Origin: Clytia hemisphaerica
Taxonomy: Eukaryota > Cnidaria > Hydrozoa > Leptothecata > Clytiidae
Direction of reading: 5' to 3'
DNA length: 64,000 bases
Assembly (NCBI GenBank): GCA_902728285.1
Contig: CACVBU010000385.1
Coordinates: 841,038-905,037 of the forward strand
Shown: positions 21,433-52,935 of the stretch, one piece after another
How positions within the stretch are numbered: the stretch's first letter is position 1
Layout of the letters: every line of letters begins with the position of its first letter
Program-made: the position numbers and the translations under genes
Notes under the pieces: model-generated
Told to the model about the DNA's origin: nothing
Database searches by the model: none
Seen by the model: the letters and a program-made list of their open reading frames with translations, nothing else

Positions 21433-21487
21433 ATGGCTATTGTGGTCAAATTGTTGTTGATGGTTTTGTTGGTTAGAAACTGTGAAG
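21433..21487 (+). other. NIDO gene exon 1: signal peptide
   Basis: The ATG at 21433 opens MAIVVKLLLMVLLVRNCE, a short hydrophobic n/h-region with a plausible cleavage after NCEG. The donor is AG|GTAAGA, leaving phase 1. A strong pyrimidine-AG acceptor lies only 10 nt before the ATG (AG at 21421-21422). A non-coding exon or a trans-spliced leader therefore probably precedes it. Confidence 0.8.
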
Positions 21488-24400
21488 GTAAGATAATTTT
21501 TCGTCTTGAAATTAATCCCTGTTCGTTCGCTCATCTTGTCAAGTCTTGAGAGAGAGAGTGAAAATAGTACAGTACAGTCTTCATAATCTGAACCTCTTTA
21601 ACCCTTGGACTGTCTCCTTAATTAGAACTTGCTTGCTGGTCCGTTCAGTTAAATGTTTTATGAACCTTATACTCCTTAACTCGATATTTCAGCAAATTTA
21701 TGTTTCTAATGCGTGTTTGAGTAAATGGAAAACGTTGCTGTATTGCAGTTAGATTTTCTTAACTTCAACACGAAGGGGGTTTGGTAACCATATAAATCAA
21801 AGGGAATTCCAGTCATGAAGAAAAGAGACAAGGAACATAGAACTATTATCAAACAAGGATGAGCATCTTTCGGGATCTGTGATACGGAGGTTTGATTCGT
21901 GTCGAGTCGGCTATACAGTTGACACTCGTTAATTCGATCTTCAAGGGGTTCAATAGACCAAAAATTTTCTGCAAATTAGAAAAATAATAATTTAAACCAC
22001 TTTCCAGCTGAGTCGACCAAATTACAAAAAGATTCGAATAATAGAAGTCTCGAATTAGAAAGACTAGACTAAAGTAAGCTGTTGAAAAAGTCGCTAATTT
22101 TAGTGTGTACGTGTCTTTTAGCGAGGGGTAAATCACTTGAAAAAAGGTTTACGATACTTTTGACTTTTTGAATTTTCACTTGACTTTTTCCCGACAAAAA
22201 CGCCCACCACCCTCGGGCGTCCAAATTTTTCACCCAAATCTTTCCAAAACGCCCACCGCCCATAAATGTTGCTCCACCATCCGCCCATTCAAGAAACTTT
22301 TTGACTTTTTCAAGACTTGTTTTTACTTTTCCTTGACTTCTTTGACTTTTTTGACTTTTTTTTGACTTTTTGCAAAAATGTACGATATAATTTCGAGTGA
22401 TTTACCCCTTTTTAGTCTTTTAGTATTCGGTTATTACTGACAATAACCTACTACTTTATACTTTCGTTTTAGGTTCGGTCAACGAATTATTCTATCCTTT
22501 TGGTGACCAATGGAACGATACAACGCTGGTTGGAGCCAGTTTTTATAATACTTTTTATTCCGTGATGCAATTACATGTCCCGTTCCGAAGCTCAAATAGA
22601 CTCTTTGTAAGTCTTTTTTAACCATTGCAGTGCCGTAGCAACTGGGGGGGGGGGCAAGGGGGGCTATGCCCCCCACCATTGAGTTTCAAGCCCGAAGGGC
22701 TAGAGGTCAATCTCTAACCTTTCTCAGGCAAGAAAAATTGAAGCCTTAAAATTTTTTTTGCAAAATGAATCTAGCAATTCCTTTGTTTTCGAGTGATATA
22801 TTTTTCGAAATTAAGCGGTAAATTTTAGTTTCAATCTGTCATTTGTGTAAAAACCGGGCGGGTCGCTCAAGGCCGCGCAACTTTGGTAGGATTTGTTGGC
22901 TTCAAATCCTACCAAAGAGATTGACCTCTAGCCCTTCGGGCTTGAAACTCAATGCCCCCACCCCCCAATATTTTTTTTCAAAATGGTTATTTTGCAAAAT
23001 GCAAAGTTTTTCTTTTTTAATTTGTCATAATTGTCTTTTAAGTGCATGTTTTGAGTGCATTTTCAAGCAATCTAGAGCTCAAATTTTCAAAATTTCCCCC
23101 CTCGGGCCAAACCATGGTTGGCCCTCGCGGTGTCACTAAACTTCAGCCCCCTCAATATGAAAATGCTTCCTACGGCACTGCATTGATCTCTAATACTCCT
23201 TCCTCGAAATGCATTAACTTCGTTCTCAAAGACTTGCTCCTACGATACTTCAACGCCCTCAGACATAATCAATAGCAAGTTTATGTATTTGCGCTTTTGA
23301 GGACGGTAAAGTGACTGAAGCGATTTGGAATAACCCGCAGTTCTTCCCCGCAAAATCGAGGACGTCTCAGCCCCGTTCGAACTTTTTTCCCTTAGTGGGG
23401 ATAAAAATTCCAATTGAAATCCCAATGGGATAGAAATTCTATTGTACCAAAATCCAGTTGGGATAATATTGGAGTGCATTTTAACATTGAATTTTGAGTG
23501 GGGATGAAATCAAAGTCAGTTTCCCAGTGGAGCTAAAATTCCAGGGTATTTTACCAACGGGGCGAAGTTTTTGACAAATTCTCCAGTGGGAGTTTGGTCC
23601 CAGTGGGTCTGTGACACAAGGGTGTTCTAACGAGAGTTATAGCTTAGCTTGTAATGCAAAAGAATATGATATCTGCGATTCTAAATCATCCCTCGCTTAT
23701 GGAAGGGGCTACTTGTTCTGAAAGTTTTAGCTATGCAAACTTCAACACTTTTCGTCTGTCGATCGTCTACAAATTATCTATAAACCCTAAACTCCTCAAA
23801 ACGAATGGGTCGAGTTTAATGCGGCCCGATGGTCCCAGACTCCTTACAATGGTTAATTGGTGTTTATAATTAAACTCTGGTTAAGGAGTTTCTTAAAATC
23901 AGTATTTTTCAGTTGTAATTGTGCGTAATTGTAATTTGATAGTCGATTTCCCGATCTTTCCGGATTGATTTCCCGATTTGGTTTGTGTTTGTGCTCGCAT
24001 TTACTAGGATATACTCTTTTAAATTTTATGTTAGATATATTAAGAAAAGCTGACCACGATAAAGATGTTTGCATAATGGTTCGCTATTCAAAAATGACAA
24101 TAACCGGAGTTTGCAGCCGTCATTACGGCTGTTTTATTGTCTCTTTACGCTGTCTACCTTTTTTTAGATTTACGATAGTGGTTATGTTTCAACGGACCTC
24201 CAGACAAAAGAAAATCCTACAGTTAATCACGGAATATTTCTCTACAGTGGCTTTTTCAGTTCGAAAGTTGGCAGTGTCTCACATCGACAAACACGAAATG
24301 AGGTATACGGTATATTGACAAAGCATTGGTCTCATTTGTTTGAATGACAAATTCAAGTATAAACGCTCTTTTACGAGAACATCCAAAAATGTTTGAAGCT

Positions 24401-27400
24401 TTTTGAGTTGTAAACTTAAAAATGTCTTATTTCACGATTTTGTTAGTATTTCTGTGCGAGAGTCCACAGAGCTTCAAAATATTCTTAACTTGCTCTTAAT
24501 AGGTTGTCTATCGCAGCCTTATATGGAGGGGGGGTTTCTAGGGGTTCGAAATACCGCTTTCCCGTCAAAATTTTTGCTGAATAACGGAATCCCGAAAATT
24601 GAAAAAAATAACACCGTCACAACGGTTTGTACAGGTTCAAATACCGGCATAATGACAAAAAACAAGGCCAAATACCGTCACCTACTGATTTTGAAATACC
24701 GTTTTCCCATCTTTATTTTCGTCAAATCCCGTAATACCGTACTAAAAAAGGGCCAATCCCGTCACACCGTAAAAGTGCAAACCCCCTTATATTTTTATGT
24801 GTTTTTTTTTCATAAAAAAGCGTGTTGAATCCGTTGTTCTTTCTGTCAATTATCTCTAGCCAGTTGTCAATAAAATGATTGAAGATGACCTTCGAAGATA
24901 TAAAGATCATAAAGAACCGAATATGAAAGATTTCGTTCCTAAAAACACTATCATTATCACTTACTACCAAACTTACAGGTTGGTCTTTCTATTCATCATA
25001 TTCATGACGTAATGTTTTTTTTACGGAATTACCCCGGTTTCATCTAGTAGTGGCACATTTAAACAAGACAAAAGTTGTATAAAATGTGCCACTACTGGCA
25101 AAAACCCGGGTCTTTTCGTAGAAAACATTACGTCATAAATATCATGAGTATTCACCTATGAACCTTTGACGTCGCATTTGGCTTTTAAAAGGACATAAAA
25201 TTACTGACTAAATTTGTAAACAAACCGTATGCAGCGGGATACAAAATCAAAATATATGTCGCATGTCAAAAAAGATCAAAATAAATATGGCTGATTTTGA
25301 TCATGAAATTGTTGATTCAATTGTTTCACAAGTTTGTTTTGGACACGTGGTCTCAATTGTGTTCTTTAATGACACGTGATTTGCGCAATGTTTACATTTT
25401 GCTACTTTTATGTCCCTTTAAGGGTACTGGTGTAAGGGTTTTTTTCGGTGCATGAACTTTTTAGTGGTACTTAAGACGTACCCAACAACGTACCCAATGT
25501 CAATCTGGCTTTGTTTTAGGCACAACTTTTGTTATAGTTGAATTTACATCCTTTAGTGAAGCATTATTCCTCGTCTCGCTTTGTGCAACTTTATAAATGG
25601 ATGTGAACTTTTTTTTTTTTTTTAAAGTAACCTCAATGCAGCGACTTCAAAAGTAGAAGCCAAAGTAGATTCTGATTCTGAAGAGACCGTAGCTTGCAAG
25701 TAGAGCATCCAGCTACGGTGCGCAAGGTCGTCGTGGTTCAAACCCTGGCCGGGTCATACCAAAATCTTCCTAAAAATGGTACTTGATGCCTCTCTGCTTG
25801 ATGCTCAGTACTTAAGGGAAGGGTCAAGGGGAAGTGGAGCAATCGAGGGAGAAAGAGTGGCTACCTTCGGGTAGGCAGCTATCGAAAGAGGAGCCTTCGG
25901 GTCGTCTCCGATTGCGGTCGCAAACTTACTTTACTTAGATTCTGATTCGTTTGGCCTAGTCTTGGATTTAGACCGCCATAGTTAAATCTAGAATCCACAA
26001 TTGCGAAAAAAGAGAAAGCCCTTTCTTTTCCTATATTGATTGACGCGAGAAAATTCGACCTGGTGGTGCGTTGCATAATTGGATAATTTATTCTTAATAA
26101 TTTTGTAGCATGAAGGTTGTGGGTATCTTTTCCCATCTGGGTGTACCAAAAATTTCATACTAAAATTACAAAATGGTACTTATATGCCTCTCTGTTTGAT
26201 GTTCAGCAATTAAAAGAAGGATCAAGGGTAAATAGAGGGAAAGAAGTGTCGCCCTCCCTTACATTCGGCTAGACAGCTAAAGAAAAAGAGAGCCTTCGGG
26301 TCGCTCTCGACTGCGGTTGCAAACTCATATTACTACTTTTGATTATTTCAGGTACCTCTCAACCCAAAGGAACGTTTTTCAAGCCATTCTTACATATAAC
26401 GATCAAGACGCTTACCTCATTACCAACTACTATGTCCTGGAAAATGCCGGAGCAACTGTTGCTCAAACATATAATGGCTGTACACATACATTTGCACCCA
26501 CATTCAATAGCAATAACCTTCAATATAATACCAATATTGGTGTACAAGGACGTTATGTATGGAACGTAAATGATGTTGATTGTGAAGCTGAAAAAAGTAA
26601 GGTTTTTGTAATCATAGCTTCCAAACGACGTTTTTTGAACGTATAACGTTGTGTTGACTTTATAAACGTTAGTTGAACGTTCATCTAACGTTGTGTTGAC
26701 ATTATGAACGTTAGATGGACGATTTTTGAACGTTCATCTAACGTTGTGTTGACGTTATGATTACGCTGGATGAACATTTCTTATGACGTTTTAAAGAAAG
26801 TTTGGATTAAATATGTTTTCAATGCGTATACATGGTTTTTAGCTTTCCTATGCAAAGTTTTCTTGCACAGAAATATGGTTGTAATGTGTAAAACATTTTT
26901 GGAGGAAGTTAAAACAATTATCAGACTTCAAAAGATTAAAGGCTTGTGTGAACACGAGAAGTTTTTTTCGCGTTGATGCAATGCAACATGCTCCATCCCA
27001 CCAACCTGAAACACACACTTTCTTTCTTGTGTTGGTGGGATGGAGCATGTTGCATTGCACCAACGCGAAAAAAACTTCTAGTGTCCCCAAGCCTTAAATG
27101 AATTGGTTTCCTTTTATTGAAACTCGTACTAAAGTCAAATTTAAATATTTCGCAACCTTTCTTTTTTCCTGAAAATTCCAAAATTTGTTCGTGCGGCAAT
27201 CGTCCTTACGGGAACTTGGATGTTATAATTAAAAGAAAAAGCTATATATATATATATATATAATATAAACATAACACTTTGATCACCACAATCTTTAAGA
27301 ACAACTCCAAAACACTCGATTTCTCAGGAAAATGAACAAAAATACTCCCAAAATATTAGGAACATTTTTAGGCTTAAAACTCAAGAAAGTTAAGAACATC

Positions 27401-30400
27401 CGAATAGGCTTTAAAGATTTTTGATATGCTCTTATAAAAAACGTGCATAGTATAGACTAGTTTTTCAGTAATTTCGTTCAACTTCTACGTCTTAGAACGC
27501 TACATCACGGAGGACTTAGACGGAGTGCAGATTCTTCCAAAAGGGGATGACGTTGTTGAGAAAATCACCTTATCACAACCTATGCCTCTATTCCATGGAT
27601 TGAAATCGGAATTTCTGGTTAGTAAACATTCTCCTCTTATTTATTTGTTTTCCTCATGGTAGAACAAATACAATTATTCCTGGAACGGAAAATTTAGCTG
27701 TCTAACCCTGGTCAGCAGAATGAAAGCAACGATTTTACCTTTATTGCCTTTATGGCATAACAAGCTGCGATGATTTGGTAGATTCCTCAAACCTGGTTAA
27801 AATATTGCGTAGAAAGTGCATTTTTTGATTTCTCAAGGAATTGAAAGATTTTGTTTGACATTTACTAGGTCTTTCACTGTCGAAAATTACGCTCTGAATT
27901 GTCACGATCCTAATACACAGGTTGCAAAATTAAAGACTGAAGATAAATCACGCTTTTACTCGAAATTTTTATGTGCTTGTTACATGACATTTATTTCTGA
28001 TTGGTTCGAATTTATTGACACTAATAAAGTTATCAGCTGTAAGTTGTAAAGCAAGTAACATGGAAATAAAATCACGTGAACTTTTTCGAGTAATCACATG
28101 TTTTGACTGCATTGAAGGCCGAGGTAAACGATTCCAACATTTCGTCCAAAATAGAAATTGAAATATTGGACAAATGTTGGATAAATTTTGGAAAGGTGTT
28201 GGATCTCCTTAAAATTGTTTCGTCGCAATGTCCAACATCATTTTCATCTAACATGGGTGTTCATGTGTTCATTCATTCTTTTTTTAATTCATTCTTTTCG
28301 AACTAGAAATGGCGCTAGCAGATGATTTTTGTACCCAGTGTAACCAGTGCCAACTACTGCTGTTCATGCGGACAAAAGCTATAGTCTAACAATTGGACCC
28401 TTACAATGCAGAGAAAATTCTGGCGAATAATCGAATCTTATGGTGCATTTTCTTGAAATTTATTTACCTATTTCAAGGCAAAAAATGGTCAAAATTTCTA
28501 AAATTTCGCAACAAAAAATGTTCTCAATTTTTACACACTTACAATGCATTCTGGGAAGCCTGAAAAACGTACCTTTAAAGGGTCACGCTTCTACGATAGA
28601 TCGCTTAATTTCAGTGCCACCCCTTGGTTTATTTTCCGAAAAAAAAACATTCGCTACTAGTAGCTTCTCTACCATCGAATTTTTGACAAAAAAACATTCT
28701 ATTCTAATTCTAATGACGTCATTCCCTTTCAAACGTTGGATATGAGCTGAGTAAACGAATCCAACATGATCCAACGCGAAAAAAAGAAGTAAATGTTGGA
28801 CAAAATGTTTGATGGCGATCAAACTCCAACACTTTTTTCCTTCTTCCAACATAATTTTTTCTTCTTTTCCGATTTTTGCATTCAAGTAAACGATTCCAAC
28901 ATTCCGTCCAACATGGTCCAACAGAGAGAAAATGGTATGTTGGATGGAATCGTTTACCTCGGCCTTTCGTGTATTCAAAAGTACCTGTTGTTGAAAGCAA
29001 CATTCGCAATAAGTTTAACCTTTACCAGGGACTTTATGTATATATTTAGACGTGAATTATAATTTGTTTTTAATTACATTTTCAGCTTAAATTAATAAGT
29101 CTTAATTACGACGATGATCAGCATGTGACGACGTCTTTCTGGAAACCAATGTTCTCTTACCTTCCGGGAGACTTGACGTTTTGCTTTAAGCCTCAGTCCG
29201 ATGATGGCCCTCATTGCAAGGGTCGAAATATTTTTGTTTCCATTTTTCGATTTGTTTCACGTTGATGTTAAATAGTTACTAGCCGGTACCCGGCGTCGCA
29301 CGCCGGTTTAGCTGTTTGCTCAACGCATTTACAGTCCTTTGAGATGTTGGGAAGGTGGCTTAAACACGATGAAATCAAAATTAAAGGGAAGAATTTTCTT
29401 CAAAGTTTGACTCTATCCCTCCCGGGTGACGTATCTTTTAACCATATTTTGAAAAAAAAATTTGTGGCAAAAATGATCAGAAAACAGAAAGGGCGTCATT
29501 CCCAAATTACACCATACCGGCGACCAGCGACGTCCGAGACGGCTCTGCAATTAGATTTTTTTTCCCGCTTCGCTCACGTTATATTTGCCGTAGTTCTTGA
29601 TGTTTAGGAAAACTTTGATGTCAAGATAAGCGGAGTGAAATAATAGACATGACACGCGGTTCGTCGAAAAAAGGCAGCCCGGGGGGTGGGGTATTTAGGC
29701 AAGAGAAGGGTATGGGTATGGGTATGTGCCGGCCTTAAGGGTGCCTTTTTTGAAACATGGCAGTTTGAAAAATCGGAAAATCAAACTTCAGTCCCACTAA
29801 GAATTGGAAAAATAGGAAAATTTCAACTTTTTGCCCCCAGAAAGATAGAAATTTGGTCAAATTAGTTCCAAAAAGTGAATTAAAATTCACACAATTTCCC
29901 TTGTTTCTTCTACTCTTTATTCTGCTAAGGGTCCGAGGGGCAGGGCCGAAAGTCAGCTCGCAACCATCGTCCCCCCGGAAGGCAGCTAGGACACGCAGAC
30001 AAAAAAGCGTGATAGATAGCGCAATTTTATGTTGCTTTTTATAAAATAACTTCGTCATAACTTCAATAATTTTTCAAATTCAACAATGACTTAGATTTAC
30101 AGCAAAATAATTATCGACATACATGTTTAAAGGGACATAACAGTACTTGCGAAATTTGTAAACAAACTGTATGCAGCGGATACAAAATCAAAACAAATGT
30201 CACATGTCAAAATAAAAAATAAAACCAAATATGGCTAATTTTGATTGTTCAATTGTTTTACAAGTTTGTTTTGGACACGTGATTTTAATTGTTCTCTTTA
30301 ATGACACGTGGTTCGTGCAATGTTTACATTTTACTACTATTTTAATACTACTTAAATTTTACGAAGAAAGAATTCTAGTTTTTACCGCCTTTTGAATGTA

Positions 30401-39400: not shown

Positions 39401-42400
39401 ATTAAAGTATTCATCTGACGGACATTTGGAGACGGACAATTCAGAACAGACACGCTGCACGATCAAGAAGGATATTTCACGACGGAAAACACGCGACAGA
39501 CAATTCACAATGAGAAACTCACGGCGGACAAACTTACGAAGGAAACCTCACGACAGAAAACAAACGACAGAAAATTCAAGACGGAAAACACACAAAGGAC
39601 AAACTTATGAAGGGCACCTCACGACAGAAAACAAACGATGGACAAACTTATGAAGGGCACCTCAAGACGGAAAACAAACGACAGACAACTTATGAAGGGC
39701 ACCTCATGACAGAAAACAAACGACAGACAATTCACAATGGGAAATTCACGGCGGACAAACTTACGAAGGGCACCTCGCGTCAGAAAACAAACGACATAAA
39801 ATTCAAGACGGAAAACACACGGCGGACAAACTTACAAAGGAAACCTCACGACAGAAAACAAACGACATAAAATTCAAGACGGAAAACACCCGGTGGACAA
39901 ACTTATGAAGGGCACCTCACGACAGAAAACAAACGACATTTAATTCAAGACGGAAATCACACAAAGGACAAACTTATGAAGGGCACCTCACGACAGAAAA
40001 CAAGCGACATAAAATTCAAGACGGAAAACACACAGCGGTCAAACTTCATGAACTGGGCAAAGACTCTAAAAAGATAGTAACGCCTTAATACACTTTTTCG
40101 ACCGTAGTCGCGCGGTCAGGCGCGTGTCACTTAATTATTTACTTTAAGAGCAGAAAGTTTCGCGGACAAGAAGTTTCGCGAAGTCAAAAAGTCGCAAAAT
40201 TTAGCGAATTTAAGTTTCGCGAATTATGGATCAAAATCGCGAAAAACACGTTTTTGCCCGCGAAAGTTTCTGACCTTAAAGTAATTATCCCCCTAAACTC
40301 GATCCAATCCTTTTTGACACATTTTTCTATTGTCTATAGGTGCGAAAAAAGGACTGGGACGGTTTTAGTGGGATAAAGCGGACAAAGAATGCCCGCGTGG
40401 TAATTGGCGGCTACGGTCGAAAAGGTGTATACCAACATCACATTTTTATTATTATAAAATTGTTCTTTATTACAGGTACTATCGTGAAACGAATGATACC
40501 GACATTCTAGAAAAGTATTTATCAGAAAAGAATATCTTGACCACAATAAACAGTGTGGTAGTCATCACTTTTCATACAGACAAGAGAGGTGACATCCCAG
40601 GCTATCATCTTCACACCAATAACTTTCAAATTGTTTTGGGAAGCCGGTATATAGATTCAGCCTATGTTGGTTTCATGTAAGTAATATTTCATTTTTGTAA
40701 ATTGTCTCTTCACAATCAGTGAAGTGAGTGCTCGATACTATATACTGCGGAGCGAATAACCTTATTAAAAGAAACATTATTTTTCTATTCAAATATGCTT
40801 GTATATTAAAAATTGACATTTTTAAGATGACTCACTATTGAATCAACAATCTTGTACAAATTTCCATGACGTATATTAATTTTATAAAAATCCAGCTGAA
40901 AATTGCATCTATGCATGAAACCAGTGGTATTGGAAAAGAAAAATAATGTTTCTATTAATAAAGTTAAGTAATTTTTGATATTGTAAAGTCTTTACGCAGT
41001 CTACAGTTGACTAGAATTTTTTCATTCAATGGTTTTCGAATCCTTTTGGAAAGTCCGTACAAAGATTAAACTTATATGGCTTATATTGAATAGGGCTCTT
41101 CTTGCAAACAAAATTACATGGAGGTTGAGGATTTAACATTTTTCAGGGTTTTTGATCACCCGGACTAGAGATTTCAACTCGGAAATCATACCGGTCAGTA
41201 CTCTGAAGACCTAAATTTTACCCACGGACAAGGAAAACTGACAACTTGTTTCCTACCCCCGGCACAAAGTCAACCGCCCTTGTAATTTTTTTTGAAAATC
41301 TAAACCTTTGTAATAAGTATATGTAATCACATGATACGAGCGATTTTTTTGTTATTAATTTTCTGAGTCCGAAAGGACGAGGAAAATTCGAAACAAAAAA
41401 AATCAAGAGTGCAATTTTCGAATTGTACGAGTTATTATGAGTTGATCGCACATTTTTTCACTTCTTTTTCCCCGTCAGGAAAGTAAATTACACTGAAAGT
41501 TTTATATTTTTCTCTTCTCACTTTGTTTTTCTTTTATTGTTGTTTATGGATTTTCTCTCTCACAAAATGAATTTCGAATGCAATTAAAACGTTCGAAGAA
41601 AACAAACTGTAAAAATTGGCGCGACATCGAAGAGTGTGATTAACGATTAATTGCTCTCTTTGAAGGCGCGCCAAATAAGAAAAAATTACTCATCGTGCGA
41701 TTAAGCCTTAAAACAATCTACAGATTGGTTGAGATGTTATAAGCATAAGGATCTCGTGAGTTCCGTCCCAGACGATTGCCAGATGATTAAAAGAGGCCTT
41801 TCCGACTCGAAATTTCTACTTCTAAATTTGGAGAATCCGGGCTAATTCAAACTTCTCACTCTAATGTTTTAAACAACTATACAGCGTGTCCTGATAAAAA
41901 CTGAACAGGATTTATTTAAGATAAAAAGCCATACAATTATCATTTGTATGATTTATTCCTTTAGGTATTGAACCTATAAATTGAACCAATAAATTTTATT
42001 TTGTTACTAGATAAGCTCCAGTGAGATATTTAGTTTTGACGGTTTTCCTTTTCTATAAAATGTGTTCTGCCTTCTTATGGGACACACTGTAGTTAAATTG
42101 TTTTTCATAAGTGTTTCTGTTTCATATCAGACACATATTTCATATCAGGACAGTGTCTGCCTATTGCTGTATTATGCTGGTATAAGCAAAAAATATTTTT
42201 CTTTTCCTCCTGACCAATCTAGCTCCACATCTGTGTCAATCCAATGCGAAAAAGCTTGTGAATTAAAATTTTATGAGCAAGCAAACGATATCACTCTTTT
42301 AAAAACAAAAACTTTAAATCTTTTTCTATTCTTACTATTTTCAGATACCGCCGTTTGGATACACTCTTCGGCGTTGTCGGTTTTTCGGTTCCAGGATGTT

Positions 42401-45400
42401 TCTCTTATGAATTCACTAAACCCCTAGAAACACATTATCTACCAAGTCAAAAAGGTGGCAAACAAGGTTTCTTTGGATCGTGGAGATGCTACGATTTCGA
42501 GACAGGTGTGAAGATTAATATTATATTAATTGGGGGACCAACATTGGGGTCCTTTGACATATTTTCTTCCTATGACCCGTGGGTGATGAAAGGAGTATTT
42601 TAAGATTGACCTTGTTACATGTAGATGAGACCCTCCTCACTATGTAAAAAGGACCAATCTTAAATTTAAGGTTAGCTTATTTTCCTCAGACAATAATTTT
42701 GACCCTTTTGATTTGTCAACGATGATGTTTAAATATGTCGTTCGAAGTAATCATTTCATTTGAAACCAAGGTCCGCTCCTGCTGATTTGTCTCGAGAAGT
42801 GTTTTAGTTCGTTGTCTCTGCTGTAACTCCAATTGAAACACCTTCCGGTTGAAAAATTTCTTATTAAACCATGGAGGTGAAGTTCTAATTTTTGACTTGC
42901 TTAATGTTACCGAAGGGTATTCCAAGTGAAGTGGGATCACTTTTCCCGATTCATTTGAGTCTCTTTAACCTGTCAATGTCTCCCTATTAACTCGAACAAG
43001 TTTTCTCATCCCTTCAGATAACAATGTCTCATAAACCTCACTCCATAACTCAGAATTAGGACCTAAAACACATTTTCACATAGCGTTTTCAAAAACCGTA
43101 TACCCCTGTTGATAGGAGGTCCATCCCTTTGTGGCTGAAGATGCTGTTGCCCCCTGGAATTCCAGGCAATTCTAGGTTTAAACCCCTCTGGAATTTTGAA
43201 TTTTAGAAGGATTTAAAAAGCTACCCCCATGGAATTCCAGTTATTTTTTACATCTTTTTGTATCTCCCTCTGAAATTCCGCCACATATAAAACCTTACCC
43301 CTCTGGAACGGAAATGGACCTCCTCAACAGGGGGTATACGGTTTCTTTTTGGAAAAGTCCATTGGAGACGTAACGGCTTTTCTTTCTAATAGCAATGTTA
43401 CCGGACGGGATTCCAAGTGGTGATCAGTTTTACGGATTCAATTGAACTTCTATAACTCGAATGCCTCCTTATCTCGAACAAGTTTTATGCTATTTTCTCT
43501 ATAATTCGAAATTTTCACATACCGTATTGGAGACGTATAGACTTTTCTTTCTACTAGCAATGTTACCGACCTCTTTAAACAATCCCCCATATATTGTTAG
43601 AATATTGCAAATCGAGCCGACAATATATTGCGGATGTAATTTCGATATATCGCTTGTCATTCTTTAATAGCAATGTTACCGAACGGGATTCCAAGTGGTG
43701 ATCAGTTTTACGGATACCTGAATGACGAACTACACTTGGGAAGTCATGATAAATACTTAACAATACGCAAAGGGAATATGCCCGGTTTTGATGGTATCAG
43801 GATTGGCTATATTGTGGTAAGTTTGAGTTGTAGATCTACACTAGAGAAACTTATTTGAGAAACAGCATACCTCCTTTGATCTGCTTACTCGTAACTCAGG
43901 TAAAAGACACTTGTGCTATCCGGACGTTTGGCATTGGAATGTGTCGTAAAAATATTGTCTCCCAATATTGCCACCCGCGAAATTAAGTCCCTGCGAGATC
44001 TTATAATTTCGCGGATGAGCTCAACCGCCAAAAAAAATATCCCATTGAAGTAATGGGTTGATGGCATAGATATCTTATATAAAACACTAAATAGAGCTAC
44101 TCTGAATTTCCCAAGCAACGGCAGGTGAAGCAAAAAATAATGCGATATCTTTGCTGAAGTCACAGTAGGTCGCAGTTCGGTACTAGCAACTTGTTTAACC
44201 AAGCAAAAAACTGAATGACGCGAAGCGACGAGGTGAAAGATAGAGCTTGACCGATGAAATTGCCGGCAACGAACTATGGTCTACTTATCAAAGATGGTGG
44301 ATTATTTTGAGCCCCCTTTTGAGTCAAATAGGGACGGATTAGCTCTATCTAAGATATCTGTGGTTGATGGTCAAATAATTCAATATATTTTCTTTTCTAG
44401 ATCAGTGCGAATGGTATGTTAACGATGAACAGAGATCCCAAACCAACTTCCAAATATTACAATTCCAACAATATTATTCTTGGTTATGTACAACCTAACT
44501 GGGTGAACTTTAATAACAAGGTTAGTTTACCATGATTAGTTTGCTAGGAAAATTGCACCCGGAAATCCCCCCACCCGGGAAACTCATTTCCGGGGGCAAT
44601 TTTCCCAGGGCAAATTTTCTAGAATCACAAAATATCAATTCAGCGTTTTGAATTTTTTGTACTATAGAAAATCTCTTGAGCAATAATATGTGTTGATCCG
44701 GGCGAAAATGCGTTCACTTGCCAAGTGAATCGTTACACCGAGTGGTAATTGAACCCTGGTCTTTTCGTAGAAGAACCTTACACTTGGATTTTTTTGCACG
44801 TATTTAGGACGCCACTTTCGTGCTGGAAATAGTAAGATTCACATGCTGTTAAACTCTAGTTAAAGTTTAATGTTAGATACAGGCTTCATAGCAGAGCTTA
44901 TACCATTATATATCATATAAATATTTTGTTTTACACGTTTTTAGGATGCTACCTCCGTGCATGTAATAGCCAGATTAGTATGTTAAGCTCTAGCTAAAGT
45001 TCATAGTATGGGAACAAACCTTAGGATCCGTGACAACTCTTCTAGGACGCAACCACATGAATTTCGTTCGAAAATTGAATGTATTTGAAGACATTTTCGC
45101 CAGGGGAGTCCGCTGCTAAGGCCTGGCAACATTCTTTATTGGCCAAAGACTGATGTTGCAGGCAAAACTTTAAAGGCAAAAAATGGGTAAAAAAGTGACG
45201 ATTTTTGAAACTCGTGTTCAACGGAAACGATAGACTATCCTATAGTCTAAGGCGAGTTTCTTCTAAGAGGAACAAACGGGAAGACGGGAATTTTTTTCGG
45301 GGGTAGCTTTTGTCGTAAACACAGACTCTATCCGCCGCGAAACATATTACGTTTTACTATGTTATATCATAATAATATATTATACGGACTATAGCATCGT

Positions 45401-48400
45401 CTACGGAAACGATTGACACCATCGTATAGGGCATGAAATTACTATCAATGTTTGATGCACGTTTTGTTTCATACATCCATAGGATGCCACTTTCGTGCGG
45501 GAAATAGCCAGAAACAGTATGAGAAACGTACACGACCGAATCACGCTTGATATGTTGAACAACGCTGTCAACAAGTATAAAACTTTACGACAAGAAAACA
45601 GGTAATGGTTAAATTTGTGAAAGTAGGAGTGCTTGTTGGATATAAGAGTATTCCTGGAATATCAGAGATTTCAAAACATTTTTAAATAAATTTTTGACTT
45701 CAGAATATATTGGGGATGGGGATTTGTTTACAGAAAACAAAGTGTGCTGTATGTACCGTTGGCGTTCTGTTGAATATACTGGATTACTTAATCAGTAGTG
45801 TAAACATAGTCGATGAACTTGACCAAGCATTTAATTTTTATTTTACAAACATGCTTCGAATAATCATCATCAGTGGATTATTTTGTTTAACTCTTCATAA
45901 TTATAATCTCGTATTATCATGTTATCATTTTCAAACGGTAACATTAGCAGATTCCCATTACCTTCCTTAAGGGAACTACATAATTTTTGTGGGATTAATT
46001 TTAACGATGAAAAGAAAAATGCCAGAAAATCGCATTTCGCGGGAATTAATTTTTCGCGATTTTGTCCTATTTTCTACACATTAATTTCATTTTCCTAGTG
46101 ATTTTTCAAATTCTTTGATGAAAAATAGCCAAGTTTGTAATTCGCGGATTCTAATTTTCGCGGTTTTGCCGAAAAGCCGTGAAAAAGCAAAAGTTAATTT
46201 CCGCGAAAATAAGTGCCCTTACTGTAAGCTAACTCATTATAATTTTCATATTATCATGTGATCTCGTTTAGTATTGCGCGCCTTTAAACTGGAATCACAT
46301 TAGATTTCCCTCTCATAACTCATTATATAATTGTCTTATTATCACATTTTCAGTGTTACGCAACCATTCAACGGTAACCACGCCGTGGTCATTACGTTTA
46401 ACACAATCAACGGCGTACATTATCAGTACGGGTTGATTTCCAATGGTAGTGAAACACACGTGGTTATGAACTTCCTCTCAGTTGGTGGCTACGGGTTTCA
46501 TGGTGTTTCGAACCCTGCTTGTACAAATTATAGGTAAAAGGCCCGCAAAATGTCAATTGCATTAATTCCATAGATATCTTACCTAAAACACTAGATAGAG
46601 CTATTCTGTATTTCCCAAGTAAGTGCATGTGCGCCATATTTGATGAAAGTAGGTCACAGTTTTCAACCAAGCAAAAAATCCTGAATGATGTGAATCAACG
46701 AGGCGAGATTGATCAAATTGCCGGCACCGAACTATGGTTTACTTATCTAAGACGGAGGATTATTTTGATTCAAATAGGGACGGAGTACCTCTATCTAGTT
46801 TTTATATAAGATATCTGTGATTAATTCGCATTGATTACCTTTTGAAGCGTGAAGAGACTGAGTTAAAGCTTATTGGAAGGAATGGCGTCAAAATTTCTGT
46901 AACAATGAAAAAAATCAATGCAGCGATCTTCGACGGAACGAGATAGAGTTTTTACAATCTCTTATTTGATTTGGTTGGTCGTTAACCATTAATAAAACAA
47001 TTTTGTTTCTTTTTTTAAAGAATGCGTCATTTTTATTACTTCAAGAATGACCAATTTTTAAAACATCTAATAAAAACTCCATCTCATCTGCCTTCGACAT
47101 TGACGGGTGGGAGGGGTCGGAAACTAGTTAGTTCCCTTGTTAGTTTCCGGTCCCTCCCACCCGTCATTGCCATTTTTTATTTTGGAGAAAATCCAGTTAA
47201 CCATTCAGAGTCAAAAACCTATGAAACAAGTTACAAATAACAGCAATAATAACAACAACGAAACAAGATTTCTTTTTTTCTCGTTTCCAGTATGACGTTA
47301 TACATATCCTCATTCCAAGAAGCCACAACATTACTTCTGGATGGATCAAATACTGGAGTCAAAGGACAATATGTTTACCCTATCACTCATAGGATTTGTG
47401 AAGGTAACAGTATGGTAAAGTTTAGTGTACCAGTAGCATTGTTGACAAGAGGGACGCGAAATTTGTGTAGAAGAGCTATGAATAGATAATTACTGTGTCA
47501 TAAAAATCTGCTCTCCTACACAGGTTTTGCGCCCCAGTCTACGCTACTGTAACAATGTAAAGGGATAATCGTATGTTTTGAGATATTTGACCTGAAGACT
47601 CCTTCTATAATCACGACGAGAAAATGTTAAAATCATTTTGCCTGAGCTTGCTTTTTTTCAAAGTCGGGATTTCAAAATCTCTTATAATTGCATGGTTCTT
47701 TCATTGAAATTCTATTCTATTTTATTGTTTTTGCTAATAAGCTAATATTATTTGTAACTTAAATGTTTCAAGTTTGCAAAATGATTAGGGAAAAAGATTT
47801 CGAGGACAATACAAGGAAGTTACGGGCGAAATATATCAGGCAACCTGATTATCCCATTTAAACAGAAGATGATGTGCATAGACTAATTCGAAAATACTTG
47901 CCAAAACCATTTTTCCAAAAAACAATATTCAACAGACCTTTTCATAAATGACGTCACGAACATCACTTGCCTTGTTCTGAAATTATTGCCATGGTGATTA
48001 GCTCCCAGCCGATTTTATTAAAACTATTCATAAAAAAATCATTTTTTTCTCAAGAGACATAACCACCATAATAATAAATCTTATCAGAGTTTTTTATTTT
48101 TCTAAAAAAGCAATGCATTGTGGGATTGTTTCGGAAATATTACAATAGAAATCTCTAAGGAATTCCTCGAGGGAATTCTATTGTAATACACCCGAAACAA
48201 TCCAATGCATCGCTTTTTTAGAAAAATCAAAAAGTCCGATAAGATCTATACACCTTTTCGACTGTAGCCGCCAATTGCCGCTCGGGCATTTTTTTGTCCG
48301 CTTTATCTCACTAAAACCGTCCAAGTCCTTTTTGACACACTTTTCTATTCTGATGTTCATTATTGTATAATAAGTCTTTTTATTTTGTGGCACCATCTTT

Positions 48401-49964
48401 CCATCTTTTCTCGATCGCCAAATCTGTTTGTAAAGAGTGCTTTGTACGCGCCGATCTTGCCAAATGAAGAATGGTGTGTTTTAAGTCTTTCAAAATCTAG
48501 AAGAAATACTGTAAATAGTTTGATGGATTTTTTTTTAAACCAGAGACTTTGATCTGCGTTTTTTTTAGAGCTGAGGCCAAAGCCGCCTCCACCGACCATG
48601 ACGCCCGCTACAACCACCACCACTATACCTTTCACAGCACCTCTTTTACCGAAATCGACCGAAAGTCTTTTCTCCACAACCACGTCTCACACTACGACGA
48701 TAACAAAAGATAGCTCAAAGGAGAGTCAAGCTGGAGGGCCTGAGCCTAGTGAAAAAACATTTCCAGTTACAAATGACCAGGGAGGTTAGTATTTGGGACC
48801 CACACCGTTGGGAGGCCAGGGGCCATGGTCCCATCACTATTTTTCAAATAAAATGTTACTTTAAGGAGTCAAATAAAATGTCATTTTCAGGAGTCAAATA
48901 AAATGTTATTTTAAGGAGATCATGGTTCATATTTTCAATAGTTTCGCTTCTACGGGTACTCATAGTACGCTTGGTAATTTTTAAGAATATTTTCAGCTGT
49001 CAAAGAGAAGGCCCCTTATTTTGCTCTAAATAGCCTGATTTTAGCCTATATTTACCTTATTTTGGGTTTTTAGAAGTACAATTTCCAACCCCCCCCCCCC
49101 CCGGCAATTATGTCCCCCCGTTTATTAAAATCTCGAAAATATTCCAAACCCCCGTTTATTTGGCACCTAAGAGTAAAGTCAGTCTGAAATAGCATCATTT
49201 TAAGGTTTAATGGAGACTCACGCAATTAAAATGTCCCATGGTCTCCTAAGTCGCTATATTTTAAGCCGTCCACTTTACAGATCATGACATGGGCCCTGGT
49301 ATTTTATAGATTATCTCCTCCTTTTCTCCATCTGTTGACAAATTAAAAATAACAAAGGAATTACTCAAAATACTCAAAATGGCGCGGGAGGAGGAGAAAG
49401 TTGTTTCTTCAGTTTAAAAATACTTTGTAAGCAAGTTATAGGAGATGCGTTGAAATGATGTCCTTTAAAATGAACTTCTTCCACTCTTAGAGAAATTTTA
49501 TTTGGCTAGATTGAAAAAACTACCTAATCGGCCTTTTTACACCGGCCTTTATTGGTGTCATTATTTCATAGCTGGCGCAGTAAGGGTCGTCGTAAGGGAT
49601 CGGAATTAAATTAGGGCTAAAAATGGTAAATAAAGGCATAATAAGGACCGGCGTAAAAAGAGCAGAAAAGGTAATGGCCGTCGTAAAAAAGGCAGATAAG
49701 TTAAGGGCCGATGTAAAAAGGGCCGAGATAGTATTACTATTATGTTCGTGAAATTTAACCCTAGGTTCTCTTTTTTGTTCGTGTCCGAATTTCTTAATAA
49801 TTTATTTACAGTATTAATCATTTCATCTCTTCTCAGATACCTCTTCGAACCAGATGCCAATTATAATCGGAGCGGTAGTGGGTGGTAGCGCCCTTTTGGT
49901 TCTGGTTACGGCTGTGGTGGTAGTGTTGAAGAGAAGATCTGCACGAATGCAAGGCTATTCATGA
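21433..49964 (+). CDS. Five-NIDO-module type I membrane protein (23 coding exons, 1,179 aa)
   Basis: I joined the exons from splice sites and frame. Coding exons: 21433-21487, 22473-22606, 24168-24302, 24860-24978, 26352-26596, 27496-27617, 30892-31021, 32381-32526, 34534-34750, 35691-35809, 36572-36926, 37411-37545, 38543-38670, 39267-39382, 40476-40676, 42345-42505, 43671-43816, 44401-44520, 45483-45601, 46354-46533, 47291-47403, 48569-48784, 49837-49964. All junctions use GT-AG, and the lengths sum to 3,540 nt with no stop until the last codon. Product: signal peptide (residues 1-18, MAIVVKLLLMVLLV core), five NIDO-like modules (19-229, 230-434, 435-637, 638-839, 840-1065), a Thr/Pro/Ser stalk (1066-1137), a helix at about 1146-1168, and tail KRRSARMQGYS. 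The domain call rests on YPFG, a GxxS-type strand, YYRET and NxFQ blocks typical of NIDO (nidogen/tectorin/Muc4 extracellular domain). Role unknown; a cell-surface adhesion or recognition protein is an inference. Exon choice is by eye and has not been tested against transcripts. Confidence 0.85.
22678..22953. mobile_element. 276-bp MITE with 35-bp TIRs (AAGCCCGAAGGGCTAG family)
   Basis: ATTGAGTTTCAAGCCCGAAG at the left end is matched by CTTCGGGCTTGAAACTCAAT at the right, and the inversion extends to AGAGGTCAATCTCT. Each end is flanked by a GCCCCCACC-like 9-bp run, a likely target duplication of the length seen in Mutator-like elements. A relative with the same palindromic core lies at 62771-63054. 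Confidence 0.85.
23368..23632. mobile_element. Repeat of the GGGTCTGTGA-CACCC family
   Basis: Contains AGTGGGGATAAAAATTCCAA, AATTTTGAGTGGGGATGAAA and CAGTGGGTCTGTGACACAAG. The same phrases, inverted or direct, recur at 51342-51623 and 51890-52111, showing a dispersed family. Confidence 0.7.
24990..25150. mobile_element. 160-bp hairpin MITE in intron 4
   Basis: ATTCATGACGTAATGTTTT at the left pairs with AAAACATTACGTCATAAAT at the right, and TAGTAGTGGCACATTT with AAATGTGCCACTACT in the middle. It begins 12 bp after the exon 4 donor. Confidence 0.8.
25186..25430. mobile_element. MITE of the AAAGGGACATA family, copy 1
   Basis: The ends are TAAAAGGACATA and TATGTCCCTTTA. The interior (GTAAACAAACCGTATGCAGC, GTTTTGGACACGTG, AATGACACGTG) is about 80% identical by eye to the second copy at 30127-30340. 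Confidence 0.8.
25681..25935 (+). mobile_element. tRNA-derived SINE, full-length-like copy
   Basis: The head has an A-box-like TAGCTTGCAAGTAGAGC and a B-box-like GGTTCAAACCC spaced as in a tRNA. A body follows with ATGCCTCTCTGCTTGATGCT, GGGAAGGGTCAAGGGGAAGT and GAGCCTTCGGGTCG-type motifs, ending TTGCGGTCGCAAACT. A second copy of the body without the tRNA head lies at 26140-26335. Presumably it was mobilised by one of the LINEs; its 3' end does not obviously match the LINE tails here. Confidence 0.75.
26140..26335 (+). mobile_element. SINE copy 2, 5'-truncated
   Basis: The body matches the SINE at 25681 from GTACCAAAAATTTC through GCCTCTCTGTTTGATGTTCA to GCGGTTGCAAACT, but lacks the tRNA-like head. 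It ends 16 bp before the exon 5 acceptor, so the SINE tail probably forms part of the acceptor context. Confidence 0.75.
26625..26765. repeat. AACGTT/GTTGTGTTGAC tandem repeat
   Basis: Three approximate repeats of GAACGTTCATCTAACGTTGT followed by GTTGACNTTATGA. Same motif family as 21003-21137 and 53020-53085. Confidence 0.8.
26939..27095. mobile_element. 157-bp hairpin MITE
   Basis: A long palindrome: AAGGCTTGTGTGAACACGAG pairs with CTAGTGTCCCCAAGCCTT, and GCAACATGCTCCATCCCACC with its exact inverse. TAA on both sides could be a 3-bp Harbinger-type target. Confidence 0.85.
27243..27262. repeat. (TA)n microsatellite
   Basis: A pure TA dinucleotide run of about 20 bp. Confidence 0.95.
27915..28107. 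mobile_element. MITE of the ACACAGGTTGTAAAATTA family, truncated copy
   Basis: Matches 50441-50656 over most of its length (CACGCTTTTACTCGAAATTT, CTTGTTACATGACATTTATT, GTTATCAGCTGT). Its right terminus is lost where the next TIR element starts at 28115. Confidence 0.8.
28115..28966. mobile_element. 852-bp TIR element rich in TGTTGGA motifs
   Basis: The left end AAGGCCGAGGTAAACGATTC and the right end GAATCGTTTACCTCGGCCTT are inverted. The interior carries about ten TGTTGGA/TCCAACA motifs in both orientations, and GTAAACGATTCCAACATT recurs internally near 28885, so it may consist of two nested relatives. No transposase frame. Confidence 0.75.
29271..30770 (+). mobile_element. Unclassified interspersed element, about 1.5 kb
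   Basis: The left edge is GC-rich, ACTAGCCGGTACCCGGCGTC, unlike its surroundings. The right edge is CATACAGACAGACAAAACGA followed by CTATTAATATATAG. Termini of this type (a CCCGGC-rich start and an ACAGACA...TATTAATATATAG end) are familiar from animal interspersed repeats. A copy of the AAAGGGACATA MITE is nested at 30127-30340. I cannot assign a superfamily. Confidence 0.45.
30127..30340. mobile_element. MITE of the AAAGGGACATA family, copy 2
   Basis: Parallel to copy 1 at 25186 through GTAAACAAACTGTATGCAGC and GTTTTGGACACGTG to AATGTTTACATTTTACTAC; the right terminus is lost. Confidence 0.8.
31059..31117 (+). repeat. Echo of the exon 7 (30892-31021) 3' end and donor
   Basis: GTAATGATTTCAATGTCATT, then GATGCGTTGAAGTGTAAGTT, then TACTCCTCCC is a diverged tandem copy of the real exon end (GCTAATGACTTCAACGTCAC, GATGAGTCAAGGGGTAAGTT, CTCTCTTCCTCC). 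It follows the real donor by about 40 bp. Confidence 0.7.
31118..31461. mobile_element. 344-bp hAT-like MITE with perfect 8-bp target duplication
   Basis: AGGACCCTGTCGACGCACCG at the left and CTGGTGCGTCGGCAGGGTCCT-type sequence at the right are inverted. CTCCTCCC flanks both ends (31110-31117 and 31462-31469), an 8-bp duplication as in hAT elements. The interior has about a dozen CACCGGAC/GTCCGGTG motifs in both orientations. Confidence 0.88.
32569..32769. mobile_element. 201-bp MITE with about 70-bp TIRs
   Basis: CGGTTAGCCGCTTCGTATAA at the left is inverted as TTATAGGAAGCAGCTAACCG at the right. The arms continue through CACCAAAATTTCGAGTTAAC and CATCCCATTGGCTAAAA. Confidence 0.88.
32789..32924 (+). 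repeat. Intron repeat shared with 42116-42246
   Basis: TCATATCAGACATATATTTC, ATCAGGACAGTGTCTGCCT and ATGCTAATATAAG recur in the same order and orientation in the intron before exon 16 (42345). Either a dispersed repeat or intronic homology left from module duplication. Confidence 0.75.
34340..34497. mobile_element. Near-perfect palindrome (hairpin MITE)
   Basis: GTGCAATTAACGATTAATCA at 34358 is inverted as TGATTAATCGTTAATTGCAC ending at 34478, around a TTCGGACTCG-type centre. The outer ATCGTATG arms extend it further. Related CGATTAATCGTTAATTGCAC sequence occurs at about 34018 and a shorter piece near 41640. Confidence 0.85.
34790..34943. mobile_element. MITE of the CAGTAGCGTAGCC family, copy 1
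   Basis: CAGTAGCGTAGCCAAGAGAG and TCTTGGCTACACTAC-type ends are inverted, with AATTTGTGTAGGAGAGCAGA inside each arm. Copy 2 lies at 47431-47549. Confidence 0.85.
35121..35294. mobile_element. 174-bp MITE with TTA target duplication
   Basis: TCGGGGAAAACTTCGTCGGG is exactly inverted at the right end (CCCGACGAAGTTTTCCCCGA). TTA stands on both sides (35118-35120, 35295-35297), the standard PIF/Harbinger target. The interior repeats GTGACGAA and TTTTCCCCGACGAAA. Confidence 0.88.
35347..35531. mobile_element. pogo/Tigger-like MITE
   Basis: CAGTGGAGTTTCTATAACTC and GAGTTAAAGAGACTCTACTG are inverted ends, with TGTTCGAGTTAA and AAACTTGTTCGAGTTAAGGA inside. Opposite orientation to the copy at 18850. 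Confidence 0.8.
36205..36460. mobile_element. 256-bp MITE of the AAGAACATTTTAAG family
   Basis: TACACGTTTTTTTATAAGAG and TATAAAAAGAAAAACGTGTA are inverted ends. The interior repeats GTTCTTAAAATGTTCTTA. Decayed relatives lie at 16070-16560, 24365-24440 and 27285-27440 (the last inverted). It ends 111 bp before the acceptor of the large module 3 exon. Confidence 0.82.
37032..37250. repeat. Tandem duplication, two units of about 110 bp
   Basis: GAAGTATATAAAGAGGCTTT, then ATTCTGCATAATTCACTA, then TTAAATCCAT, repeats once as TAAAGTATATAAAGAAACTT, ATTCTGAATGATTCACTA and TTAAATCCAT. Confidence 0.75.
38726..38891. mobile_element. 166-bp hairpin MITE
   Basis: ATTCTAATATCTTAACAGAC and CTGTTAGATATTAGAAT are inverted ends, with CGGAACAACCGTTAAAGT inverted as ACTTTAACGGTTGTTCCG. 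Confidence 0.85.
39405..40060 (+). repeat. Irregular minisatellite of CACGACAGAAAACAAACGAC units
   Basis: About ten units built from CACGACAGAAAACAAACGAC, AATTCAAGACGGAAAACACA and GGACAAACTTATGAAGGGCA in varying order. It lies in the intron between 39382 and 40476. The open frames across it (39426-39870) are products of the repeat and not genes. Confidence 0.9.
40088..40430. mobile_element. MITE of the ATACACCTTTTCGACCGTAG family, interrupted
   Basis: ATACACTTTTTCGACCGTAG and CTACGGTCGAAAAGGTGTAT are inverted ends. Partial relatives lie at 48245-48352 and 55352-55500. The second MITE (40141-40282) is inserted in it. Confidence 0.85.
40141..40282. mobile_element. 142-bp nested MITE (AAAGTTTCGCGG type)
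   Basis: ACTTTAAGAGCAGAAAGTTT and AAAGTTTCTGACCTTAAAGT are inverted ends. The flanks AATTATTT and AATTATCC match at 6 of 8 positions. The paralogous uninterrupted site near 55375-55395 reads straight through, which confirms the insertion. Confidence 0.85.
42116..42246 (+). repeat. Intron repeat shared with 32789-32924
   Basis: TCATATCAGACACATATTTC, ATCAGGACAGTGTCTGCCTA and ATGCTGGTATAAG match the other copy in order and orientation. Confidence 0.75.
42905..43670 (+). repeat. Echo copies of the exon 17 (43671-43816) start plus MITEs
   Basis: Three decayed copies of the module 5 opening precede the real one: about 42911 (AATGTTACCGAAGGGTATTC), 43395 (CAATGTTACCGGACGGGATT, nearly identical to the real CAATGTTACCGAACGGGATT) and 43557 (CAATGTTACCGACC). 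The second keeps its acceptor-like TTTCTTTCTAATAG and reads MLPDGIPSGDQFYGFN before a stop. A 162-bp tandem unit (ATTGGAGACGTA at 43367 and 43529) carries two of them. pogo-like fragments lie at about 42955-43060 and 43440-43530. Confidence 0.78.
43094..43344. mobile_element. 251-bp MITE with CCGTATACCCCCTG ends
   Basis: AACCGTATACCCCTGTTGAT and CAACAGGGGGTATACGGTT are inverted, continuing to AGGAGGTCCAT/ATGGACCTCC. The interior is a tandem of CCCCTCTGGAATTCCA-like units. Confidence 0.85.
44064..44368. mobile_element. MITE of the CATAGATATCTTATATAAAA family, copy 1
   Basis: CATAGATATCTTATATAAAA and GCTCTATCTAAGATATCTGTGG-like ends are inverted. The interior (AACCAAGCAAAAAACTGAAT, GAAATTGCCGGCAACGAACT) matches copy 2 at 46570-46825. 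Confidence 0.8.
44790..45075 (+). repeat. Echo copies of the exon 19 (45483-45601) start
   Basis: Position 44813 reads GACGCCACTTTCGTGCTGGA after TATTTAG (DATFVLEIVRF, then a stop). Position 44945 reads GATGCTACCTCCGTGCATGT after TTTTTAG (DATSVHVIARL, then a stop). The real exon reads GATGCCACTTTCGTGCGGGA (DATFVREIARN). A fainter third copy may lie near 45053. Confidence 0.8.
45966..46223. mobile_element. Repeat with TTCGCGG motifs and CTTAAGGGAAC / GCCCTTACTGTAA ends
   Basis: The termini are weakly inverted (TTAAGGGAACTACATAATTT against AAATAAGTGCCCTTACTGTAA-like sequence). The interior repeats TTTCGCGGGAATTAATTTTT. Confidence 0.55.
46570..46825. mobile_element. MITE of the CATAGATATCTTATATAAAA family, copy 2
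   Basis: Shares CCATAGATATCTTA, AACCAAGCAAAAAATC, AAATTGCCGGCACCGAACTA and ATAAGATATCTGTG with copy 1, in the same orientation. Confidence 0.8.
46938..47090. mobile_element. MITE copy 2 of the GGAGTTTTTACA family
   Basis: CTCTTATTTGATTTGGTTGG and TCGTTAACCATTAATAAAAC match copy 1 at 10399-10552 closely. The ends are AGATAGAGTTTTTACA and AAAAACTCCATCTCAT. Confidence 0.82.
47431..47549. mobile_element. MITE copy 2 of the CAGTAGCGTAGCC family, internally deleted
   Basis: Shares CTATGAATAGATAATTAC, TCATAAAAATCTGCTCTCCT and the terminal ACGCTACTG with 34790-34943. Confidence 0.8.
48081..48242. mobile_element. 162-bp hairpin MITE inserted next to a CTTTTCGACTGTAG element
   Basis: TTATCAGAGTTTTTTATTTT is inverted as AAAATCAAAAAGTCCGATAA. 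The arms include AAAAAGCAATGCATTGTGGG. Confidence 0.82.
48245..48352. mobile_element. Partial copy of the ATACACCTTTTCGACCGTAG MITE
   Basis: ATACACCTTTTCGACTGTAG, CGGGCATTTTTTTGTCCGCT and AAAACCGTCCAAGTCC match the inverse of the right half of 40088-40430. Confidence 0.8.
48569..48784 (+). other. NIDO gene exon 22: Thr/Pro/Ser-rich stalk
   Basis: Encodes 72 residues rich in Thr, Ser and Pro (LRPKPPPPTMTPATTTTTIP, STTTSHTTTITKDSS), a likely O-glycosylated stalk lifting the NIDO modules off the membrane. It is bounded by phase-1 introns on both sides, so it too is a symmetric cassette. Confidence 0.85.
48845..48918 (+). repeat. 29-bp tandem repeat, three units
   Basis: AAATAAAATGTTACTTTAAG followed by GAGTC occurs three times with small changes. 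Confidence 0.8.
49515..49735. repeat. Relative of the TACCTTAT TIR element
   Basis: GGCCTTTTTACACCGGCCTT, GACCGGCGTAAAAAG and GGGCCGATGTAAAAAGGGCC resemble the terminal motifs of 19211-19603, with several extra units in tandem. Confidence 0.6.
49837..49964 (+). other. NIDO gene exon 23: transmembrane helix and cytoplasmic tail
   Basis: Encodes MPIIIGAVVGGSALLVLVTA followed by VVVVL, one strong helix. KRRSARMQGYS and TGA follow. The positive residues right after the helix fit the cytoplasmic side. No signalling motif is visible in the 11-residue tail. Confidence 0.9.
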
Positions 49965-52136: not shown

Positions 52137-52935
52137 TTTTTTTTCAAAACAAAATTTTATCAATGTTACAAATGTTTAAACAAAAAATAACTTTACTTTA
52201 GATTTAAAATTATTAACTAAGAAAGAAAATAAAATAAACTAGATTTTATCAATGTTACAAAATGTTTAAACCAAAAAAATCACTTTACTTTGGATTTTAA
52301 ATTATTAACTATAAGAAAGAAGATAAAATAAACTAAGTTAAATCACTTTACTTTGGATTTAAAATTAATAACTAAGAAAGAAAATAAAAGAAAATAAATT
52401 TTATCAATGTTACAAATGTTTAAACCAAAAAAATCACTTTACTTTGGATTTTAAATTATTAACTATAAGAAAGAAGATAAAATAAACTAAGTTAAATCAC
52501 TTTACTTTGGATTTAAAATTAATAACTAAGAAAGAAAATAAAAGAAAATAAATTTTATCAATGTTACAAATGTTTAAACAAAAAAATCACTTTACTTTGG
52601 ACTTAAAATTATTAACTAAGAAAGAAAATAAAATAAAATAAACTAAATTTTATCAATGTTACAAATGTTTAAACAAAAAAATCACTTTACTTTGGATTTA
52701 AAATTATCAACGGGTTATTAACTAAGAAAGAAAATAAAATAAACTAAGTTTTATCAATGTTACAAATGTTTAAGCAAAAAAAATCACTTTACTTTAGATT
52801 TAAAATTGATAACAAAGAAAGAAATAAAATAAAATACATTTTATCAATGTTACAAATGTTTAAACAAAAAAATCACTTTACTTTAGATTTAAAATTGATA
52901 ACAAAGAAATAAAATAAAATAAACTAAATTAGCAT
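52137..52935. repeat. AT-rich minisatellite with higher-order structure
   Basis: About seven units start TTTTATCAATGTTACAAATG followed by TTTAAAC, then CACTTTACTTTGGATTTAAA, then a purine block of AAGAAAGAAAATAAA type. Unit length is near 90-100 bp, and two consecutive longer units near 155 bp (52243 and 52398) carry an extra CACTTTACTTTGGATT half-unit. Confidence 0.92.

Follow-up and report, generated by a model that had tools for sequence, protein, structure and literature searches.

The analysed window is a 64-kb stretch of Clytia hemisphaerica DNA (positions 841038-905037 of the contig labelled C273, in a 417 Mb assembly of 951 contigs). Its plus strand carries at 21433-49964 a candidate gene of 23 predicted exons, which join to 3,540 nt and encode 1,179 codons plus stop without internal stops. 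The model was built from open segments of the plus strand and the exons were chained by phase, splice-site score and resemblance between modules, whereby the sites were scored with hand-made weight matrices of approximate metazoan values. All 22 predicted introns are of the GT-AG type. The 22 donors used rank at percentiles 0.87-1.00 among the 1,509 GTs of the region and the 22 acceptors at 0.82-1.00 among its 1,402 AGs, values which are partly circular because the site score, alongside the frame, guided the choice of exons. The start of exon 6 (27496) looks weakest, with a score of -0.7, and alternative starts are possible there. The gene looks real and its splicing is predicted; the 23 exons in a single 1,179-codon frame of the original prediction were rebuilt with identical count.

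Exon 1 (21433..21487, plus strand) encodes the putative signal peptide MAIVVKLLLMVLLVRNCE; between 15 and 50 kb no other first exon resembling a signal peptide was found. The 1,179-residue protein contains two hydrophobic stretches, residues 1-21, of which residues 1-18 are signal-peptide-like, and residues 1142-1173, the hydropathy maximum. The latter is encoded by exon 23 (49837..49964, plus strand), which comprises the predicted membrane helix, an 11-residue basic tail (KRRSARMQGYS) and the stop codon. Between module 5 and this helix, exon 22 (48569..48784, plus strand) supplies a Thr/Pro/Ser-rich stalk of about 73 residues, among them 18 T, 12 P and 8 S. The protein furthermore carries 11 N-glycosylation sequons. 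In the joined ectodomain a Pfam search at E up to 10 gave NIDO alone, with AMOP, VWD and EGF absent. The sequence thus agrees with the order first proposed, namely signal peptide, five NIDO-like modules without any other extracellular domain, Thr/Pro stalk, helix and 11-residue tail, and the predicted architecture is almost certainly that of a single-pass type I membrane protein. The possibility that the region comprises several genes was rejected, a single signal peptide and a single helix having been found.

Repeats and reverse-transcriptase remnants accompany the gene. A minisatellite with a period of about 71 bp (39477-40052) lies inside intron 14, and an AT-rich satellite (52147-52930), whose periods are nested and range from 61 to 196 bp, just downstream of the gene. 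Two arrays of 19-bp units (62291-62500 and 63151-63441), about 650 bp apart, are mutual reverse complements. RVT_1 reverse-transcriptase remnants were seen at 2066-4697 (minus strand, with endonuclease similarity too) and at 10795-11172. Searching the window for Rfam families and tRNA genes led nowhere. The sole COX1 match (G000:C900:5-967) was partial, lay at a contig end and contained three in-frame TGA codons.

The five NIDO modules

The modules follow one another on the plus strand and were compared one by one with the Pfam NIDO family (PF06119, cut-off 25 bits) and with a NIDO profile of the genome itself. The latter was derived from NIDO-containing open frames of other loci, the window being excluded; it was seeded by six exons found with Pfam and held 51 stretches after four rounds. 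Module 1 (22473..26596; exons 22473-22606, 24168-24302, 24860-24978 and 26352-26596) scored 33.2 bits with Pfam and 77.3 bits with the own-genome profile, and module 2 (27496..34750; exons 27496-27617, whose start is uncertain, 30892-31021, 32381-32526 and 34534-34750) 35.5 and 76.9 bits, respectively. The strongest is module 3 (35691..37545; exons 35691-35809, 36572-36926 and 37411-37545) with 77.6 and 116.6 bits. Module 4 (38543..42505; exons 38543-38670, 39267-39382, 40476-40676 and 42345-42505) reached 18.9 bits with Pfam, which is below the cut-off, and 76.7 bits with the own-genome profile. For module 5 (43671..47403; exons 43671-43816, 44401-44520, 45483-45601, 46354-46533 and 47291-47403) there was no Pfam match; the own-genome profile gave 61.5 bits and blastp aligned it to module 3 with an E value of about 2e-5.

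Five PF06119 matches spaced by about 200 residues had been anticipated. A score above the cut-off was obtained for modules 1 to 3, but not for modules 4 and 5. In the joined protein Pfam matched four stretches; Pfam by itself would accept just three of the five modules here. With the own-genome profile all five scored 61.5-116.6 bits, compared with at most 8.5 bits among 2,000 shuffled modules. On the strength of this profile we rejected a non-NIDO nature of modules 4 and 5. Modules 3 and 4, in which a lack of NIDO similarity had been named as refuting, accordingly both retain it, module 4 weakly by Pfam and clearly by the own-genome profile.

The modules are 202-227 residues long and all of them start in phase 1, after a phase-1 intron. 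The first exon of a module is short, often contains a motif resembling 'YPFG..GD' and ends in phase 0. Near the end of each module a Cys pair was recognised by eye (191/225, 401/431, 599/632, 804/834 and 1024/1064), the paired residues being 30-40 positions apart; modules 2 and 3 contain further Cys. Core exons aligned in 12 rows show the closing Cys in 10/10 rows which reach its column and the first Cys in 7/11; the C193 row was cut before this point and shows none.

Sister loci and other NIDO genes of the genome

The genome-wide search gave 38 NIDO matches, one in the window and the rest on 20 contigs, and stretches around all 20 were taken. From part of the own-genome profile matches 37 modules were made; those left out (C435, C585, C105, C760, C887, several C432 cores and one C796 piece) include partial matches and, with C887, a near copy of C831. 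The proposed search for paralogues in the same genome proved productive, yielding six further loci (C941, C444, C527, C786, C86 and C256). The family therefore counts at least seven loci including the window gene, on seven contigs which may share a chromosome; within the 64-kb window no second copy was found. As read so far, C941 has five cores, C444 and C786 modules 2 to 5, C527 modules 1 to 4, C86 modules 3 to 5 and C256 modules 1 to 3. Stalk and helix, together with all five modules, were seen at only two of the seven loci, the others having been read or matched in part. Whole-genome protein searches with modules 3-4 and with module 5 hit the same loci as before, placing module 5 downstream of module 4 in C786 and C86 and a module 3-like piece downstream of C256 y; no further family locus was among the matches listed, and the match counts are lower bounds.

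The sister modules are collinear with those of the window gene. Identity of window modules to their positional counterparts is 25-59% over the cores (best single piece 66%), and in blastp 18 of the 21 sister modules had their best match in the window module of the corresponding position. The misses are C527_1, which preferred module 2 by 4.6 bits, and C941_d and C941_e, which preferred module 3 by 3.5 and 2.3 bits; C444_2 matched the expected module by a margin of just 1.9 bits. As a control, 16/16 modules from other NIDO genes best-matched module 3, the most consensus-like window module, some by small margins. At C444, C527, C786, C86 and C256 the position labels denote the order along the gene and were given with the similarity already seen, so that collinearity is the firm claim. 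A midpoint-rooted tree of the module cores likewise groups them mainly by position: window module 4 with C786, C86, C444 and C527 (support 0.97), module 3 with C786, C444 and C86 (0.94), module 2 with C786, C941 b and C256 y (0.89) and module 1 with C527_1, C941 a and C256 x (0.88). Module 5 joins C444 and C86 at a support of 0.52-0.59 only, C941 d stands beside module 4 (0.58), and no supported position was obtained for C941 c, C941 e, C444_2 and C527_2. In five exon comparisons (four with C786, one with C444) pN was 0.18-0.39 versus a pS of 0.77-0.92 with dS saturated, as is expected for conserved proteins. As judged from the collinear modules at the sister loci, the family genes probably already had the multi-NIDO plan before they duplicated. 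A young gene cluster was rejected in view of the separate contigs and the saturated dS.

At C941 all five NIDO cores exceeded the Pfam cut-off (59.5, 69.1, 39.6, 60.1 and 40.4 bits) and are followed, as recognised by eye, by a Thr/Ser-rich stalk exon and a membrane-helix exon, which adds to the likeness with the window gene. Upstream, a scan of 6.6 kb gave no exon for a signal peptide. The series is likely one gene, but it could be two, since 9.9 kb separate the fifth module from the fourth and an MFS-type ORF is situated in this gap. This single-exon ORF (L012:5523-7133, minus strand) has 537 residues with matches to MFS-type transporters and lies on the same strand as the modules.

NIDO arrays are not rare in this genome. 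C432 (L009 3412 to L010 5767) shows six NIDO cores in series followed by ZP-like exons, with E values of 0.037 for ZP-N and 0.029 for ZP-C, both below the Pfam cut-off; two more ZP-like candidates scanned at this locus gave no Pfam match. L011 holds a NIDO core whose following exons resemble those of C432 by eye, the one scanned being without a Pfam match. LDLa, four NIDO, Kazal and C-type lectin exons occur in series at C193 (L014 and L018), and C472 combines MAM and NIDO exons; the exon series of C432, C193 and C472 may each belong to a single gene. The original prediction had regarded NIDO as a domain normally occurring once per protein, which fails here with four in C193, six in C432 and five in C941, and C. 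elegans DEX-1 has two (PMC6325711).

The window gene differs from its relatives in the introns of the NIDO cores. Each of its cores (22473-47403) is cut by one to three introns, at profile positions which differ from module to module, whereas in C941 a-e, C444 3 and 4, C527 3 and 4 and C86 3 a single open frame covers the core, as it does in most C432 and C193 modules. On this comparison, the core-cutting introns look as if they were gained after the modules had duplicated, or else lost elsewhere.

Possible functions of the five-NIDO protein

Nidogen, SNED1, alpha-tectorin, SUSD2 and Mesh carry NIDO beside other domains; nidogen combines it with EGF and G2F beta-barrel domains, and alpha-tectorin and ZP matrix proteins carry VWD repeats or a ZP module. 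The window protein has NIDO in common with these proteins, but NIDO is the only domain found in its ectodomain, with neither EGF or G2F as in nidogen nor VWD or ZP as in the tectorin and ZP matrix proteins. Searches of the PDB by sequence and by profile revealed no relative and one chance-like match (E 0.077). Excerpts of the open-licence literature searched held no description of an all-NIDO array; it is quite possible that other resources already list such proteins without any publication on them.

Among the described systems, DEX-1 of C. elegans spans the membrane and combines two NIDO domains with EGF and a low-complexity region of zonadhesin type; a construct without the transmembrane segment still rescues, DEX-1 can function in the matrix after secretion, and it works together with ZP proteins (PMC6325711). 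The window protein resembles it in having more than one extracellular NIDO domain and one transmembrane segment, and differs in its five NIDO modules and in that EGF was not found. Sea anemone MUC4-like proteins show NIDO-AMOP-VWD with a transmembrane segment (PMC9080433) and those of corals NIDO-AMOP-VWD-EGF (PMC4890752). NIDO, a mucin-like stretch and one membrane helix are shared with MUC4 and its cnidarian counterparts (PMC9080433, in part), but the window protein contains NIDO five times instead of once and is devoid of AMOP, VWD and EGF. A MUC4-like protein by domain content was rejected, AMOP and VWD not being found after NIDO. We do not assign the window protein to the DEX-1, MUC4, nidogen or tectorin families because domains that mark them were not found.

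On the likeliest reading, to which we give about even odds, the window protein would work like DEX-1, tethered to the membrane and serving in adhesion or matrix anchoring within the cell coat or the apical matrix. Its five NIDO modules might form a rod, kept off the membrane by a stalk that would be O-glycosylated; the rod shape is a guess because no solved relative structure was found by sequence. The modules would bind ligands in the matrix or on neighbouring cells, the likeliest partners being further matrix proteins of NIDO or ZP type in the cell coat. The short basic tail would suit anchoring rather than signalling, and the ectodomain is perhaps shed into the apical matrix, as in DEX-1. 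The NIDO array of C432 with its subsequent ZP-like exons offers a genome context for this reading; we count against it that EGF, present in DEX-1, was not found, that module 5 is without Pfam match and that module 4 is under the cut-off. The doubts about C941 as one gene, the best matches of its modules d and e away from modules 4 and 5, and the stalk and helix seen at only two loci weigh on the same side.

The at least seven diverged loci, the NIDO-only ectodomain, the 11 sequons and the 25-59% identity between positional counterparts would also suit a recognition receptor (immune or self/non-self), in which the diversified modules of the family members bind different ligands. We regard this as unlikely, since the loci are dispersed over seven contigs (with the chromosome possibly shared) and the window holds no second copy, since the old duplications with saturated dS are unlike young clustered recognition families, and since the 11-residue tail is without a recognised signalling motif. 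Somewhat more doubtful is a MUC4-like barrier mucin, that is, a cell-coat glycoprotein whose NIDO modules act as spacer or protective layer: the mucin-like stalk, the short tail and NIDO itself speak for it, as does the NIDO of cnidarian MUC4-like proteins (PMC9080433, PMC4890752, both in part), accompanied by a transmembrane segment in sea anemones (PMC9080433), but the ectodomain is without AMOP, VWD and EGF even at E up to 10 and the stalk of about 73 residues is far shorter than the ectodomain.

The protein could furthermore descend from the matrix proteins of this genome that combine a NIDO array with ZP, having lost the ZP module and now blocking or capping their assembly. This appears improbable: the sub-cut-off ZP-like exons behind the C432 array and a phase 0-to-1 core exon common to the family and the non-family C472 gene are consistent with it, and C941 e lies near C432 and C193 modules in the tree with a support of only 0.07, but apart from C941 e the family modules are not nested in the C432 modules of the midpoint-rooted tree. 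The splicing predicted from sequence and some weak sites would leave room for an artefact, in which exons from two or more genes, or from one that has decayed, were joined by eye. This is highly improbable, since one signal peptide and one transmembrane segment were found, the frame is uninterrupted, the modules start in phase 1, five matches came from a window-free profile and the sister genes are collinear.

Beyond DEX-1-like adhesion, the family might represent an ancient metazoan lineage of pure five-NIDO receptors with its own specificity at each position, an adhesion or recognition system comparable to the cadherin- or Ig-array families, which is a speculative reading that we hold with little confidence. 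In the excerpts of the DEX-1 and MUC4 papers NIDO adjoins other domains, unlike here. A family whose ectodomain consists wholly of position-specific NIDO modules would make NIDO itself the functional unit, and such an all-NIDO family would be a clean system in which to ask what NIDO binds.
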